In this document: piece by piece, positions 6,308-56,597 of the stretch
Layout of the letters: each line of letters opens with the position of its first letter
Position numbering within the stretch: the first letter of the stretch is position 1
Source of the DNA: Phormidesmis priestleyi ULC007
Lineage (GTDB): Bacteria; Cyanobacteriota; Cyanobacteriia; Leptolyngbyales; Leptolyngbyaceae
Assembly: GCF_001895925.1 (NCBI RefSeq)
Contig: NZ_MPPI01000011.1
Location: 40,253-104,252, forward strand
Length of the DNA: 64,000 nucleotides
Reading direction: 5' to 3'
Notes under the pieces: model-generated
The model's database searches: none
What the model was told of the DNA's origin: nothing
The model's input: the letters and a program-made list of their open reading frames with translations, nothing else
Position numbers and translations under genes: made by a program

Positions 6308-6318
6308 CTGCTTTATTT

Positions 6319-6448
6319 AACCTGAGTTCGATAGCAGTGGTTCACTCCGATGATGAATTCAGGAGAGCTACCTAAGTCTCCCAATTTGGGGGACTTAGGG
6401 GGCAGAAGCCGCTGAGAACGAAGCGAAAAAACTCGTCGAACTCACGTT
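6319..6448 (+). mobile_element. MITE-like element, copy 1 (shortened)
   Basis: 130 bp bounded by imperfect terminal inverted repeats (left AACCTGAGTTCGA; right TCGAACTCACGTT). Perfect 5-bp direct repeats TATTT flank it at 6314-6318 and 6449-6453. Its right half (GGCAGAAGCCGCTGA, then GAAGCGAAAAAACTCGTCGAA) is nearly identical to copies at 18684 and 56416, and to the reverse complement of the copy at 11296. This copy lacks part of the central palindrome. It lies 18 bp beyond the pgk stop codon. No ORF, so any movement would depend on a transposase elsewhere. Confidence 0.75.
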
Positions 6449-6466
6449 TATTTAAATTTACGCTTC

Positions 6467-11295: not shown

Positions 11296-11459
11296 AATGT
11301 CAGTTCGATGAGTTCTTTCGCTTCGTTCTTCAAGGCTTCTGCCCCCTAGATCCCCCATTCTGGGGGACTTTGAACCGGAAATCTTGGCTTGAAGTTCCCC
11401 AAACTTGGGGGATTTAGGGGGCACGACAAACTGTAACGAAGCCGTCGAATTCAGGCGTT
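11296..11459 (-). mobile_element. MITE-like element, copy 2 (inverted orientation)
   Basis: 164 bp, oriented opposite to copies 1, 3 and 4. On the plus strand it runs from AATGTCAGTTCGATGAG, through GGCTTCTGCCCCCTAGATC and the central G/C palindromes, to CCGTCGAATTCAGGCGTT. Flanking direct repeats are not obvious. It occupies the space between the ispG stop and what appears to be the ispG terminator, overlapping the first stem arm. Confidence 0.72.
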
Positions 11460-18659: not shown

Positions 18660-18683
18660 AGCCTACCTCGAATTACTTTACTT

Positions 18684-18856
18684 AACGTCAGTTCGACAGA
18701 GGTAGTTCGCTCCAATTGTGAATTCGGGAAGCCCCCTAAATCCCCCAAATCGGGGAACTTCAAGCCAAAGTTTCCGGTTCAAAGTCCCCCAGAATGGGGG
18801 ATTTAGGGGGCAGAAGCCGCTGACAACGAAGCGAAAAAACTCGTCGAACTGACATT
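18684..18856 (+). mobile_element. MITE-like element, copy 3 (full length)
   Basis: 173 bp bounded by AACGTCAGTTCGAC and its near-complement GTCGAACTGACATT. Flanks are TACTT (18679-18683) and TATTT (18857-18861), matching at 4 of 5 positions. A large internal palindrome has 15-base arms CCCCCTAAATCCCCC (18732-18746) and GGGGGATTTAGGGGG (18796-18810) that enclose smaller G/C hairpins. It lies 29 bp downstream of the stop of the following minus-strand gene and 24 bp upstream of ndhO. It has no coding capacity. Confidence 0.78.
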
Positions 18857-18885
18857 TATTTAATATTTTAATGAGTTTGGAGCCT

Positions 18886-25910: not shown

Positions 25911-26228
25911 CTTCATCAAAACTTAATCACGGCCTAGCAAATTTGCGGACTTTACTCTGTACGATGTAGAAGTAAATATCAGGGCATTACGGACTTCTCC
26001 TGAGTGAGATTGACTACCTTCAGCATCTACCATTCACCATAGCAAGATCCTCCAGATAGAGCCTGAAAGCCCTGAAAATCTTCAGAAGGCTTTCGGCGCG
26101 TATTGCTGGTATTGGTAACATTGGGGTTGATGTGAATAGGTATAAATTTTTTATTGGTTTGAATGAGCCAGTCGTTTGTGCGTCTGGGTCTGTAGGTTTT
26201 GCGGTTAAGCGATTTTGGAGCATCCGTC

Positions 26229-28355
26229 ATGGACACTAGTAGTGACCTGCTCACCGCTTCGCCGCTTTCGCTCAATTCTGACAGTCAACCTCTCAGCACT
26301 GATGCTCTGCGAGTTGCGTCTGCTCAGAGCAGCTTTGAAACAGCCATTCTCTGGCGCAATTCAGCCGAGGGGATAAATACTAGCTGGTCAATGGACGGAA
26401 CCCGATATGTCAGAAACCGCGATCTGACTTCCGTGAAAGGCTCAAGCTGGCAGTTGACCGCGACGGGTGACTATAACCGCGACGGGCAAGACGACATTCT
26501 CTGGCGTAACTCTGATGGTAGTCTCGCCTGGTGGGTGATGGATGGCACCTCGATCGCCAAGGCAGTTTTCTTAACCACGCCTGCGGTCACAGACCTCAAC
26601 TGGCAGATCGCTGGAGCGGGTGACTATAACCAAGACGGACAAGTCGATTTGCTCTGGCGGAATAAAGCTGAGGGTTCCGTTGCCTGGTGGGTGATGAATG
26701 CCACCTCGATCGCCAGCGTCGTCTATTTGCCGACCCTAAAAGATGCCAATCTGACGATCGTCGGCACGGGTGATTTCAATCAAGATAACCAGGTTGATCT
26801 GCTCTGGCGCAATGGTGCCACTGGCGAAAACTTTTGGTGGGTGACTAATGGTAGCGCTGTCACCGAAAAGCGGGTCTTGCCCCCTGTCACCGACCTAAAT
26901 TGGAAAATCGTCGTCACGGGCGATTTTAATGGAGATGCAAAAGTTGATTTAGTGTGGCGCAACTCCAGCACAGGTGCCAACAGCATTTGGCTCATGAACG
27001 GTCTAGATGTCGCTGACTCAGTGGCACTGCCGACGGTTGCCGATCTGAATTGGAAAATCGTGGGCACTTTGCGCCGTCCTGTTGAGGAACTGTCGCCCGT
27101 GAGTGTGGGCACTGCACCTGCTGCCTTATCGGCTCCTGAAAAGGCGGGAACGCTCACAGCGGCGATCGCTGAAAATTCGGCAAACTTTTCAAGCAGTGCT
27201 CAGGTGAGTGCTAACGATCTCAATGATTTCTATCGGTTTACGATCGCCCAGTCTGGAGTTTTTAGCGCCAGTTTGACGGGCTTGACCGGAGATGCTGATG
27301 TGCGCCTAGTGCAGGACGTTAACCAAAATGGCGAGGTTGACCCCGGTGAAGTGTTGGCGTGGCAGTGGGAGCGAGGCACCATCAGCGAATCGATTCGGCG
27401 GTTTTTGACGACGGGCACCTATTATGCACAGGTGATGAGCTATGGCAGTCAAACGGCAAACTATGGGCTGACGACCAGCTTTACCCCAGCAGCCAGCGAT
27501 GATCAAAAATTTGAGTTTAAGCTTGGTTTTGATACGCAAGGGTTGAGTGGGTTAAACGATGCGGCAAAAGCAGCGATCGTCGATGCAGCAAAGTTTTGGG
27601 AAAGTGCAATCACGAGTCGCAGCGCTATCACTCAATCCAATCAGTTAAACGTCACAATTACGGGCAAAAGCCTGGTCTATAGCAATGGCAGTGCTGATAA
27701 TGGAACACTGGCTCTGTCGGGGCCGCAATTTGCCCTAGACGGCCCTAATTTAATCATCAGTAGTGGCATCAGCACGATCAACGCCCGTCGATTTGCTGAA
27801 TTTAATGCCAATCCGACTTATTTGCGTAGCATCATGATTCATGAATTTGCTCACGTTTTAGGGTTTGGCACCTTATGGGAGCCTGTCCAATTTATGGATT
27901 CTAGTGGACAGATTTTTAACTTTGGCAAGAACTTGATCAACCGCACCAATGCAACTTATAACGCCAATACCTACGCAGGCTGGGCTTATGGAGGATTGAC
28001 AGGCAGTTCTACCCAAGTGGTGGTTCCGATCGAGGCGGGTGCTTTTGCTCACTGGGATGAAACTCGCTTTGACACCGAGTTGATGACCCCCTATGCTGAA
28101 ACCCCTGGAGTTGCTACTCCGCTCAGTCAGTTGACGCTGGCCTCTCTCAGAGACCTGGGTTGGAATCTCAACTTTGGGGCGGCTCAAGCCTATTCACTGC
28201 CCGCAGTTGCCCCGGCTGCCAGTTTAGCGCCGACTGCTCAAGGCAGCCAATTGGCAGCTTATACCAGTTGTGGGTGCGCTCGGTGTTTGGCAGCATCGAA
28301 GGTTTACACGCTTGATGGCACGACTTTGAGTGAGGCGATCGGCGCTTATGCCTAG
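26229..28355 (+). CDS. Secreted FG-GAP repeat / leishmanolysin-like (M8-type) metalloprotease
   Basis: 708 residues from the ATG at 26229. Residues 35-280 hold about five FG-GAP/VCBS-type repeats with Ca-binding-like loops (DYNRDGQDD, DYNQDGQVD, DFNQDNQVD, DFNGDAKVD) and LLWRN strands. A pre-peptidase C-terminal-like domain follows (about 305-420; NDFYRFTIAQSGVF). The protease domain has HEFAHVLGFGTLW (His538, Glu539, His542), a third His in AHWDE (608) and a Met-turn-like ELMTPY, matching the leishmanolysin-like pattern. No signal peptide is visible, so a non-classical or type I route is likely. The tail carries a Cys cluster (CGCARC). Confidence 0.82.
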   Translation: MDTSSDLLTASPLSLNSDSQPLSTDALRVASAQSSFETAILWRNSAEGINTSWSMDGTRYVRNRDLTSVKGSSWQLTATGDYNRDGQDDILWRNSDGSLAWWVMDGTSIAKAVFLTTPAVTDLNWQIAGAGDYNQDGQVDLLWRNKAEGSVAWWVMNATSIASVVYLPTLKDANLTIVGTGDFNQDNQVDLLWRNGATGENFWWVTNGSAVTEKRVLPPVTDLNWKIVVTGDFNGDAKVDLVWRNSSTGANSIWLMNGLDVADSVALPTVADLNWKIVGTLRRPVEELSPVSVGTAPAALSAPEKAGTLTAAIAENSANFSSSAQVSANDLNDFYRFTIAQSGVFSASLTGLTGDADVRLVQDVNQNGEVDPGEVLAWQWERGTISESIRRFLTTGTYYAQVMSYGSQTANYGLTTSFTPAASDDQKFEFKLGFDTQGLSGLNDAAKAAIVDAAKFWESAITSRSAITQSNQLNVTITGKSLVYSNGSADNGTLALSGPQFALDGPNLIISSGISTINARRFAEFNANPTYLRSIMIHEFAHVLGFGTLWEPVQFMDSSGQIFNFGKNLINRTNATYNANTYAGWAYGGLTGSSTQVVVPIEAGAFAHWDETRFDTELMTPYAETPGVATPLSQLTLASLRDLGWNLNFGAAQAYSLPAVAPAASLAPTAQGSQLAAYTSCGCARCLAASKVYTLDGTTLSEAIGAYA

Positions 28356-30733: not shown

Positions 30734-31783
30734 ATGAATACCCCAGTCAGTTCACAATTGCCAATTCCAGCTTGTTTTGATCGCGATCGTGTCGGCACTG
30801 TTTGGCGCGTTCCTTATCAACAGCGAGCCACCGAAGCCGAAGCTTGGGCAACCCAACAGGGCATTTGTCCCGCATCTGAAGATCAGGTGCGCGTTTGTCT
30901 CCTAGCGATCGACGTGCAAAATACGTTTTGCATTCCAGAGTTTGAGTTATTTGTGGGCGGTCGATCGGGACTGGGGGCGATCGAGGACAATCAGCGACTT
31001 TGCGAGTTTATCTACCGCAACTTGGGGCTGATTACCGAAATCGCGCCGACGATGGATACGCATACAGCAATGCAGATTTTTCATCCCATTTTTTGGGTGA
31101 ATGAAGCGGGTGAACATCCAGTTCCGACTGCCACAATGATTCGGTTAGAAGATGTGCAGAACGGCGTGTGGAAGGTAAATCCAAAGGTTGCTTATAGCCT
31201 GATGAATGGAGATTATGAGACGCTGCAATCTCATGCGCTACACTACACTCAAAAACTGACTGAAAACGGTAAATATCCGCTGACGGTTTGGGCTTATCAC
31301 TCCATGCTGGGGGGAATCGGTCATGCCCTGGTGTCTGCTGTTGAAGAGGCGATGTTTTTTCACTGCATTGCGCGTGGAAGTCAAACCAATTTTCAAATTA
31401 AAGGTGACAATCCTTTAACTGAGAACTACTCGGTTTTGCGTCCTGAAGTCATGGATGGGGTAGACGGATCGGCGATCGCGCAAAAGAACAGTCGATTAAT
31501 TCAAAAACTGCTCGATTTTGATGCTGTGATCATCGCAGGTCAAGCAAAAAGTCACTGTGTTGCATGGACGATCGACGACCTGCTGACCGAAATTTTGGCT
31601 CAAGATCCCAGCTTGGCAAAGAAGGTTTATTTGCTAGAAGATTGCACGTCTCCGGTTGTGGTGCCGGGTGTAATTGACTTTACAGAACAGGCAGATGAAG
31701 CGTTTCAGCGATTTGCTGAGGCTGGGATGAATTTGATTCGATCGACGGATTTTGTGGGCGATCGTCTAGCAAATTTGAGTTAG
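30734..31783 (+). CDS. Isochorismatase/nicotinamidase-like cysteine hydrolase
   Basis: 349 residues, longer than the roughly 200 of minimal family members. The extra length is an N-terminal segment of about 50 residues and insertions. Active-site candidates are Asp60 ([11 protein letters not shown]) and Cys275 ([11 protein letters not shown]); [16 protein letters not shown] resembles the metal-binding loop of nicotinamidases. The substrate is not predictable. A 138-bp stretch near its 3' end (31580-31717) is duplicated, with decay, at 33892-34028 within the downstream island. Confidence 0.85.
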
Positions 31784-48927: not shown

Positions 48928-49162
48928 GCAGAAAGAGAAATAGCAGAACGATTTAACCCATTTAGGATAAACGCAGTTTGCAAAAAATCTCAATCAAGTC
49001 TTGTTATAGGGAGCTTTCTTGAGGACTGTGAAGTGCATGTGTTAAAAAGGACTACTTTGTTGCGTCACGATCGCTCGTGCTTTAGGCAATTAACTTTTCA
49101 GCCTCGGATTGTGCAAGGTCTGACCGCAAGAGCCGTGAAAGGGTTAAAGAAAGCAGACAAAC

Positions 49163-49211
49163 AAAAAGCCTCTGGACGTCTTGCCGTGTTTCGACTCCAG
49201 AGGCTTTTTGA
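49163..49211. terminator. Strong bidirectional intrinsic terminator without an obvious gene
   Basis: AAAAAGCCTCTGGA and TCCAGAGGCTTTTT form a perfect 14-bp arm pair with a 19-base loop and T5 tails on both strands. The nearest genes point away from it, so it may end an unannotated small RNA. Confidence 0.75.
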
Positions 49212-49418
49212 TTCAATTTGCTCCTCACACCTCTATACTATGCAGCACACGACTGAATTTGTCTACTTATCAGTGTGACAGACGTTAAATTGGCTGAAGT
49301 TTTGATATCTATCTAGAAAATAGGTATTGCTAACATCCCACTCATCTCTTTCAGCAGACAGAGGGTGTCTTAAAGCTCAACTTCTGTGATGCTGACATCT
49401 TTTGTCTGCAACCAGAGT

Positions 49419-56401: not shown

Positions 56402-56415
56402 GCGGGTCGTGAATT

Positions 56416-56576
56416 AACGTGAATTCGACGGCTTCGTTACAGTTTGTCGCGCCCCCTAAATCCCCCAAGTTTGGGGACTTCAAGCCAAAATTTCCAGTTC
56501 AAAGTCCCCCAGAATGGGGGATTTAGGGGGCAGAAGCCGCTGACAACGCAGCGAAAAAACTCGTCGAACTGACGTT
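56416..56576 (+). mobile_element. MITE-like element, copy 4
   Basis: 161 bp, from AACGTGAATTCGACGG to CTCGTCGAACTGACGTT, with perfect 5-bp direct flanks GAATT (56411-56415 and 56577-56581). The internal palindrome matches copy 3 over nearly its whole length. It is inserted 14 bp beyond the nuclease gene stop. Non-coding. Confidence 0.8.
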
Positions 56577-56597
56577 GAATTAAATTATGTCGCTACC

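Follow-up and report, generated by a model that had tools for sequence, protein, structure and literature searches.

A window of 64,000 nucleotides from the genome of Phormidesmis priestleyi ULC007 (5.68 Mb in 118 contigs) contains a short palindromic repeat that a preliminary description considered one of four copies of a MITE-like element. The locus raises three questions: whether this repeat is indeed a mobile unit, which enzyme might move it, and how its G-run hairpin relates to the similar palindromes of other cyanobacteria. For detailed counts we used a 1.264-Mb sample consisting of the window and stretches of five large contigs, each of which had matches in a first search with a 183-bp query.

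The window holds four copies of a short non-coding element

All four related elements are present where the preliminary description placed them. Because the duplication that accompanies insertion is 7 bp rather than 5 bp (see below), the mobile unit starts at ACGT; it has ACGTCAGTTCGAC as its ends and a length of about 171 bp. Copy 1 lies at 6320-6447 on the plus strand (128 bp, ends ACCTGAGTTCGAT / ACGTGAGTTCGAC), copy 2 at 11297-11456 on the minus strand (ends ATGTCAGTTCGAT / GCCTGAATTCGAC), copy 3, the one originally reported, at 18685-18855 on the plus strand (171 bp), and copy 4 at 56417-56575 on the plus strand (159 bp, ends ACGTGAATTCGAC / ACGTCAGTTCGAC). Copies 1, 3, and 4 have good ends; in copy 2 one end is clear and the other decayed. 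The hairpin of copy 1 is shortened, with a single recognisable 15-base G-run arm at 6388. In copy 3, half of the core hairpin reads TCCCCC-agaat-GGGGGA-ttt-AGGGGG (18785-18810, plus strand), and the opposite half (18732-18756, minus strand) carries a similar motif with a C stem one base shorter.

The 28 aligned loci (of 30; two loci lacking two ends were left out) give as their consensus a long, imperfect hairpin whose ends measure 13-14 bp and which as RNA would fold with about -105 kcal/mol. Fifty-two copies from the sample, kept from 54 end pairs after dropping two whose interior was not core-like and whose duplication was off by at least two, span 86-276 bp, 41 of them falling between 150 and 173 bp, with ends of 13 bp. 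They are short and non-coding, as MITEs are: consistent with the earlier claim that no copy codes for protein, no ORF of at least 100 aa lies within any copy in the window, and we found no recognisable remnant of a transposase gene between the MITE ends. On the strand opposite gcpE, an ORF of 109 aa overlaps copy 2. Searches of the elements against Rfam at the gathering threshold gave no match, and in a plasmid collection 12 records matched at most 49% of the query, mostly 17-24%, corresponding to pieces of the core.

Elsewhere in the window, a Cyano-1 small RNA lies at 49160-49234 on the minus strand (Rfam 49.5 bits, threshold 41). Repeat pairs of 64-87 bp, 1.8-2.3 kb apart (D3, D4, and D8; 31568-31717/33880-34028 and 32984-33062/34808-34886), look like local gene duplication. 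The ORF at 30734-31783 has no Pfam match, and that at 26199-28355 encodes FG-GAP repeats, visible as internal DNA repeats.

Insertion duplicates seven base pairs and leaves empty sites in a sister species

Two window copies are flanked by identical 7-mers: TTATTTA at 6313-6319 and 6448-6454 for copy 1, and TGAATTA at 56410-56416 and 56576-56582 for copy 4. Copy 3 has TTACTTA at 18678-18684 and TTATTTA at 18856-18862, with one mismatch, and copy 2 is without a duplication, its degenerate flanks TAACAAA and GTTCAAA differing at 3 of 7 positions. The preliminary description had recognised the flanking repeats of copies 1, 3, and 4 and read them as 5 bp long (TATTT, GAATT, and a third matching at 4 of 5); the repeats stand, and their length does not. 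Across the sample, 27 of 52 copies have a perfect 7-bp duplication, a count slightly favoured by our scan because it prefers, among overlapping end pairs, the one with the better duplication; 38 of 52 are perfect or have a single mismatch. When flanks were exchanged among the elements, 33 of 2652 combinations (1.2%) gave a perfect 7-bp match. Perfect repeats of 4, 5, 6, 8, 9, and 10 bp occurred in 0, 0, 2, 3, 0, and 0 copies, respectively, and we rejected the 5-bp duplication, with none perfect at exactly that length against 27 of 52 at 7 bp.

The 28-locus alignment leads to the same length. Read as 5 bp, 14 of 28 loci have perfect flank repeats; a T immediately precedes the left repeat and an A immediately follows the right one, each in 23 of 28. 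Three copies (L005, L008, and L011) have changed terminal bases, so these bases belong to the target and the repeat is 7 bp. The target has the form T-N5-A, with consensus TAAATTA. On contig C30, perfect duplications flank 9 of 13 copies. A near-perfect duplication is missing in one of the four window copies and in 14 of the 52 sampled ones. One copy with the same ends (L003, contig C48, 152531-152707) lies between perfect 10-bp direct repeats of TTATCAGGTT.

The preliminary description had proposed looking for empty sites in close strains. In the sister species G001, which shares 78-88% DNA identity in the longest matches, the site of copy 3 lacks 178 bp, that is 171 + 7, as determined from BLAST pieces and an alignment, and its empty allele reads TTACCTA. 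A second copy (contig C30, 263585-263756) sits within another multi-copy repeat, and at this paralogous site G001 agrees: two of six uninterrupted copies of the surrounding repeat lack exactly 179 bp (172 + 7), one has a gap of 181 bp, and three gave no clean alignment. G001 also lacks the copies at 6320 and 11297, but their flanks there are too diverged to define an exact empty site, and the C30 copy at 276646 had no clean empty site in that genome. A search with joined flanks gave further paralogous candidate sites (C39_184187, C102_115751, and C54_66233). The elements have consistent ends, and G001 has an empty allele; together, flanks and empty sites show insertion with duplication of 7 bp.

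The element is abundant and enriched between convergent genes

The 183-bp query gave 344 first-look candidates in the whole genome, of which 40 were scored, with 82-100% identity over the matched stretch. The 14-base end, allowing up to two mismatches, occurs 169 + 173 times, compared with 45 + 39 for a reversed control pattern, and a degenerate end pattern with zero mismatches and 156-186 bp end to end is found at 59 places, the control at none. Fifteen of these 59 places fall inside the sample, against 13 expected from its length. Scaling from the 52 sampled copies yields a genome total of about 230 by length or about 205 by exact pattern, so the earlier extrapolation to hundreds of copies per genome holds at roughly 200-230, an abundance far beyond chance. 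Of 388 genomes of the class, 10, including this one, have the zero-mismatch pattern, with no control match; G001 has it at one place.

Using gene calls based on the longest ORF only, we found that 24 of 49 intergenic copies lie between convergent genes, whereas 14.8% would be expected by intergenic length (binomial P 1.7e-8 by length, 5e-7 by number of gaps); three further sampled copies lie inside gene calls. We infer that this enrichment probably arises because insertions there are least harmful.

The ends resemble those of IS982-family elements

Members of the IS982 family are about 1 kb long, with ends that mostly start with AC and direct repeats that vary in length, 6 in ISNsp1 of Nostoc and 7 in IS1187 among them (PMC7335449). 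The MITE ends begin with ACGT, in keeping with the family rule of AC at the ends. This genome has an insertion sequence of its own with similar ends (ACGTGAGTTGGAC / ACGTGAGTTCGAT; 1031 bp), present as one complete copy on contig C62 and three pieces on C8, C77, and C103, 99.8-100% identical. Its product matches the IS982-family model NF033520 with 180.7 bits (cut-off 130). Two of 13 bases differ from the main MITE end at each end, both copies that reach the relevant stretch (C62 and C103) contain an in-frame TGA, and the complete copy is without a duplication; given these three features, the current helper may be another insertion sequence or one since lost.

A scan of 54 loci, many partial or overlapping, recovered 16 distinct IS982-type end pairs of insertion-sequence length in other cyanobacteria, Endozoicomonas, and Salinisphaera. 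Most have the form ACGTSAGTTCG, and the ends are ACGTSAGTTCGAC in most, not all, of these elements. A perfect 7-bp duplication flanks 4 of the 16, and one more matches at 6 of 7. The repeated IS982-family copies examined in G014 (L115 and L136) have other ends. A second IS982-like insertion sequence in the source genome (contigs C38 and C117; L072-L074) has an open 302-aa frame and identical copies at contig ends; as a partner we rejected it, since it is without MITE-matching ends in the stretches seen. The transposase with matching terminal repeats that the preliminary description had suggested seeking is therefore represented by IS982-family elements with similar ends, the resident copies differing at 2 of 13 bases per end. 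We conclude that the mobile unit and, as judged by its ends and duplication, its IS982 kinship are well supported and that an IS982-family insertion sequence whose ends resemble those of the MITE probably serves as its partner.

One hairpin core occurs within several kinds of ends

The core arms form 86 clusters in the 1.264-Mb sample. We distinguished six kinds of ends around them: type A, the IS982-type ends; type B, CTACNGTGTAYACAC; type C, GAWCGTGGATT; type D, GACCTCCTGCAYGAAT; and types E and F. Ends on both sides were present in 47 (A), 6 (B), 9 (C), 4 (D), 1 (E), and 1 (F) of the 86 clusters, some clusters being counted under two types and others having ends on one side only, while 5 of 86 had none of the six. 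At 2000 random places the corresponding counts for A to F were 3, 0, 2, 0, 0, and 0. The B-F ends were chosen because they adjoin cores, so the reverse count, of cores within end pairs found independently, is less biased: the core lies inside 45 of 49 A pairs, 6 of 6 B pairs, 8 of 9 C pairs, and 4 of 5 D pairs, and block-shuffled sequence contained 1, 0, 0, and 0 end pairs of these types. By regular expression, the core sequence is the same in types A, B, C, and D. The suspected resemblance of the core to a palindrome common in cyanobacteria was correct, and in the same genome the core is also enclosed by three or more further kinds of ends.

The target signatures differ among the types: 7 bp for A, about 10 bp for B, CTTAG for C (on both sides in 4 of 9), and TA for D (on both sides in 4 of 5). 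The duplication length of type B is the least certain: a 10-bp duplication is perfect in 1 of 10 copies and has one mismatch in 2 of 10, two more stand in tandem with 9 bp, and at another copy all five paralogous empty sites lack 181 bp (175 + 6). Because most of the five C30 copies have ends TACTGTGTATACAC with TA on both sides, we considered that type B might be an IS630/Tc1-like MITE with a TA duplication. The 181 bp missing from the paralogous empty sites exceed a TA-bounded element plus 2, other B copies have 10-bp duplications, and none of the 10 DDE_3 loci of the genome has such ends; we therefore rejected this assignment as very improbable. At C102 118481-119023 (L222), three type B-like elements stand in tandem with the same 9 bp (tccaaaggg) between them.

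Sharing between types extends beyond the core in some elements. In three B-type flanks, one of which has a slightly altered B end, 26-28 of 31 bases agree with the A arm, and the agreement extends to about 15 bp from the terminus; in the remaining B flanks at most 21 of 31 agree, close to the shuffled maximum of 20 in 13,600. The core of A elements has the same orientation relative to the ends in 14 of 32 cases and is inverted in 8, with 10 undecided. Repeats also lie within repeats: one A copy interrupts a multi-copy repeat, and one B copy has inserted into a repeat bearing a GATTCGTGCAGGAGGTCTA end on one side. Some C elements hold a remnant of a B end internally, which would fit insertion of B into C, loss of one B end, and subsequent movement on the C ends. 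No intermediate of an end swap was seen for type A.

Conversely, IS982-type ends enclose other hairpins in six genomes from other genera: at 65 places in G037, 8 in G109, 3 in G023, and one each in G008, G104, and G178. The core found here lies within such ends in G259 (three places), G001, and G003. At 20 places fetched from other genomes the 7-bp duplication is perfect in 8 and has at most one mismatch in 12. Compared with our interior, seven interiors from the six other-hairpin genomes scored 9-17 against shuffled maxima of 13-15 (100 shuffles each), four of the seven exceeding their own shuffled maximum by 1-3 points; two interiors of the core group scored 103 and 99. Ends and hairpins have the appearance of interchangeable modules; the pattern of exchange is well supported, and the process behind it is inferred.

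Triplex-type motifs accompany the elements

Each half of the core, as exemplified at 18785-18810, fits a sequence rule for intrastrand DNA triplexes, in which a pyrimidine stem, a loop, a purine stem, a second loop, and a mirror purine stem follow one another (Holder et al., PMC4666352); TCCCCCAGAATGGGGGATTTAGGGGG is accordingly a candidate triplex-forming sequence. We scanned the sample with our own implementation of this rule (stems of 6-12, loops of 1-6, and one mismatch permitted in stems of 7 or more) and found 108 triplex-type motifs. Of these, 56 belong to A elements and 34 to other core clusters, whose core arm itself constitutes the motif; the other 18 lie outside both groups. Shuffled sequence contained none, a control that cannot separate triplex from hairpin because shuffling also destroys hairpins. 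Grouped by independently found end pairs, 73 of the 108 lie in A (56), B (6), C (8), or D (3), and 35 lie in no recognised pair. The data tie triplex-type motifs in this genome to MITEs. Among the 20 fetched places in other genomes, 15 carry such a motif, 4 of them with the core found here; among the other-hairpin genomes it is present in G037, G109, and G104 and absent from G023, G008, and G178.

Discussion

The ends are consistent, the target is duplicated, empty sites exist, and one insertion-sequence family has ends that match, all as the MITE-like reading of the preliminary description would have it. We put at roughly 0.9 the probability that the unit is a non-autonomous MITE moved in trans by an IS982-family transposase and carrying a hairpin module common to at least four kinds of ends; the enzyme is suggested by the matching ends and matching duplications of IS982 elements. 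The transposase would recognise the 13-bp ends ACGTSARTTCGAY and cut the AT-rich target T-N5-A so as to duplicate 7 bp. Between the ends stands a long hairpin with two inverted G-run arms, each bearing the sequence of an intrastrand triplex motif. Ends might change by insertion of one element into another, after which the composite would move on its outer pair of ends, or by recombination that replaces the terminal 15 bp or so.

Some of the same observations could be read differently. The core hairpin could be an independent, REP-like mobile palindrome that inserts into MITEs and elsewhere, the ends belonging to its hosts. Its occurrence in either orientation (14 same, 8 inverted), its association with many end types, the 5 of 86 clusters that have none of the six, and several loci of other genomes where it stands without any recognised end are all in line with this. 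We nevertheless think it unlikely: some B elements share arms with A outside the core, to about 15 bp from the terminus, so that more than the core is shared; recombination of the inverted arms with each other could also produce inversion; and in the course of the other comparisons no duplication or sharp boundary was noticed around the core alone. Less likely still is convergence, whereby several insertion-sequence families independently made MITEs that took up similar G-run hairpins. That IS982-type ends surround other hairpins in G037, G109, G104, G023, G008, and G178 suggests that hairpins were acquired more than once, whereas the identity of the core across A, B, C, and D and the arms common to A and three B flanks argue for descent.

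An ordinary REP or terminator-like intergenic hairpin kept by selection, whose ends are similar by descent with no transposition, would account for the strong predicted fold and for the excess between convergent genes. The 7-bp duplications, the empty sites corresponding to the element plus 7 bp, and the IS982-type ends speak against it; as a sole explanation it is already refuted by the empty sites, and we give it almost no weight.

Returning to the MITE with its shared hairpin module, we postulate, tentatively and at somewhat less than even odds, that cyanobacterial MITEs are modular, with triplex-type hairpins as a common cargo exchanged among the ends of four or more transposition systems, and that MITEs are the vehicles behind the abundance of these motifs in cyanobacteria. 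The hairpin may be favoured because it aids transposition or host tolerance. The exchange of ends around one hairpin, together with the exchange of hairpins within one kind of end, suggests that small bacterial mobile elements evolve by swapping parts, and the presence of the hairpin within elements with different ends may explain its spread through cyanobacteria. The link to MITEs offers a concrete, directly testable answer to the spread of G/C-rich triplex motifs.

Comparison with known systems

In the open-licence literature we found no description of the core or of an exchange of ends and hairpins, no paper with TAAATCCCCC in a cyanobacterial context, no occurrence of GGGGGATTTAGGGGG, and no MITE report for Leptolyngbya. 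Small mobile repeats of cyanobacteria were reportedly described by Elhai et al. in 2008, and part of the core may already be among them. REP sequences are not known to produce a target duplication, unlike the unit here, which is 171 bp long and makes one. GTAG/CGTC-tagged REPs are palindromes of 20-40 bp (PMC3733652). Nezha and other cyanobacterial MITEs are named in PMC10969869 and PMC3733652; like our element, these are described as non-coding elements with terminal repeats.

G/C-rich intrastrand triplex motifs have been reported in very high numbers in cyanobacteria (PMC4666352). The E. coli motif TMECO treated in the same source has the same stem-loop order as the core, which is recognised here by the sequence rule. 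In that account, no link of TMECO to a transposon or mobile element was found, whereas the motifs described here sit inside MITEs.

The AC ends and, in the related insertion sequence, the length of about 1 kb and a transposase matching NF033520 agree with the IS982 family, whose direct repeats of variable length include one of 7 bp (PMC7335449); in contrast to the family, the MITE has no transposase gene and is far more numerous than the insertion sequence. Its closest counterpart in kind is MITECca01 of Cardinium cOegib, which is likewise linked to IS982 by its ends, is about 240 bp long, and has 169 mostly intergenic copies (PMC9769881). IS982-derived MITEs are thus already known, and the present element adds an abundant member to that group. 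MITECca01 retains sequence next to the end from its parent insertion sequence, and the account in PMC9769881 does not describe a hairpin interior common to other end types, whereas the element of P. priestleyi, at about 171 bp, has a G-run hairpin as its interior.
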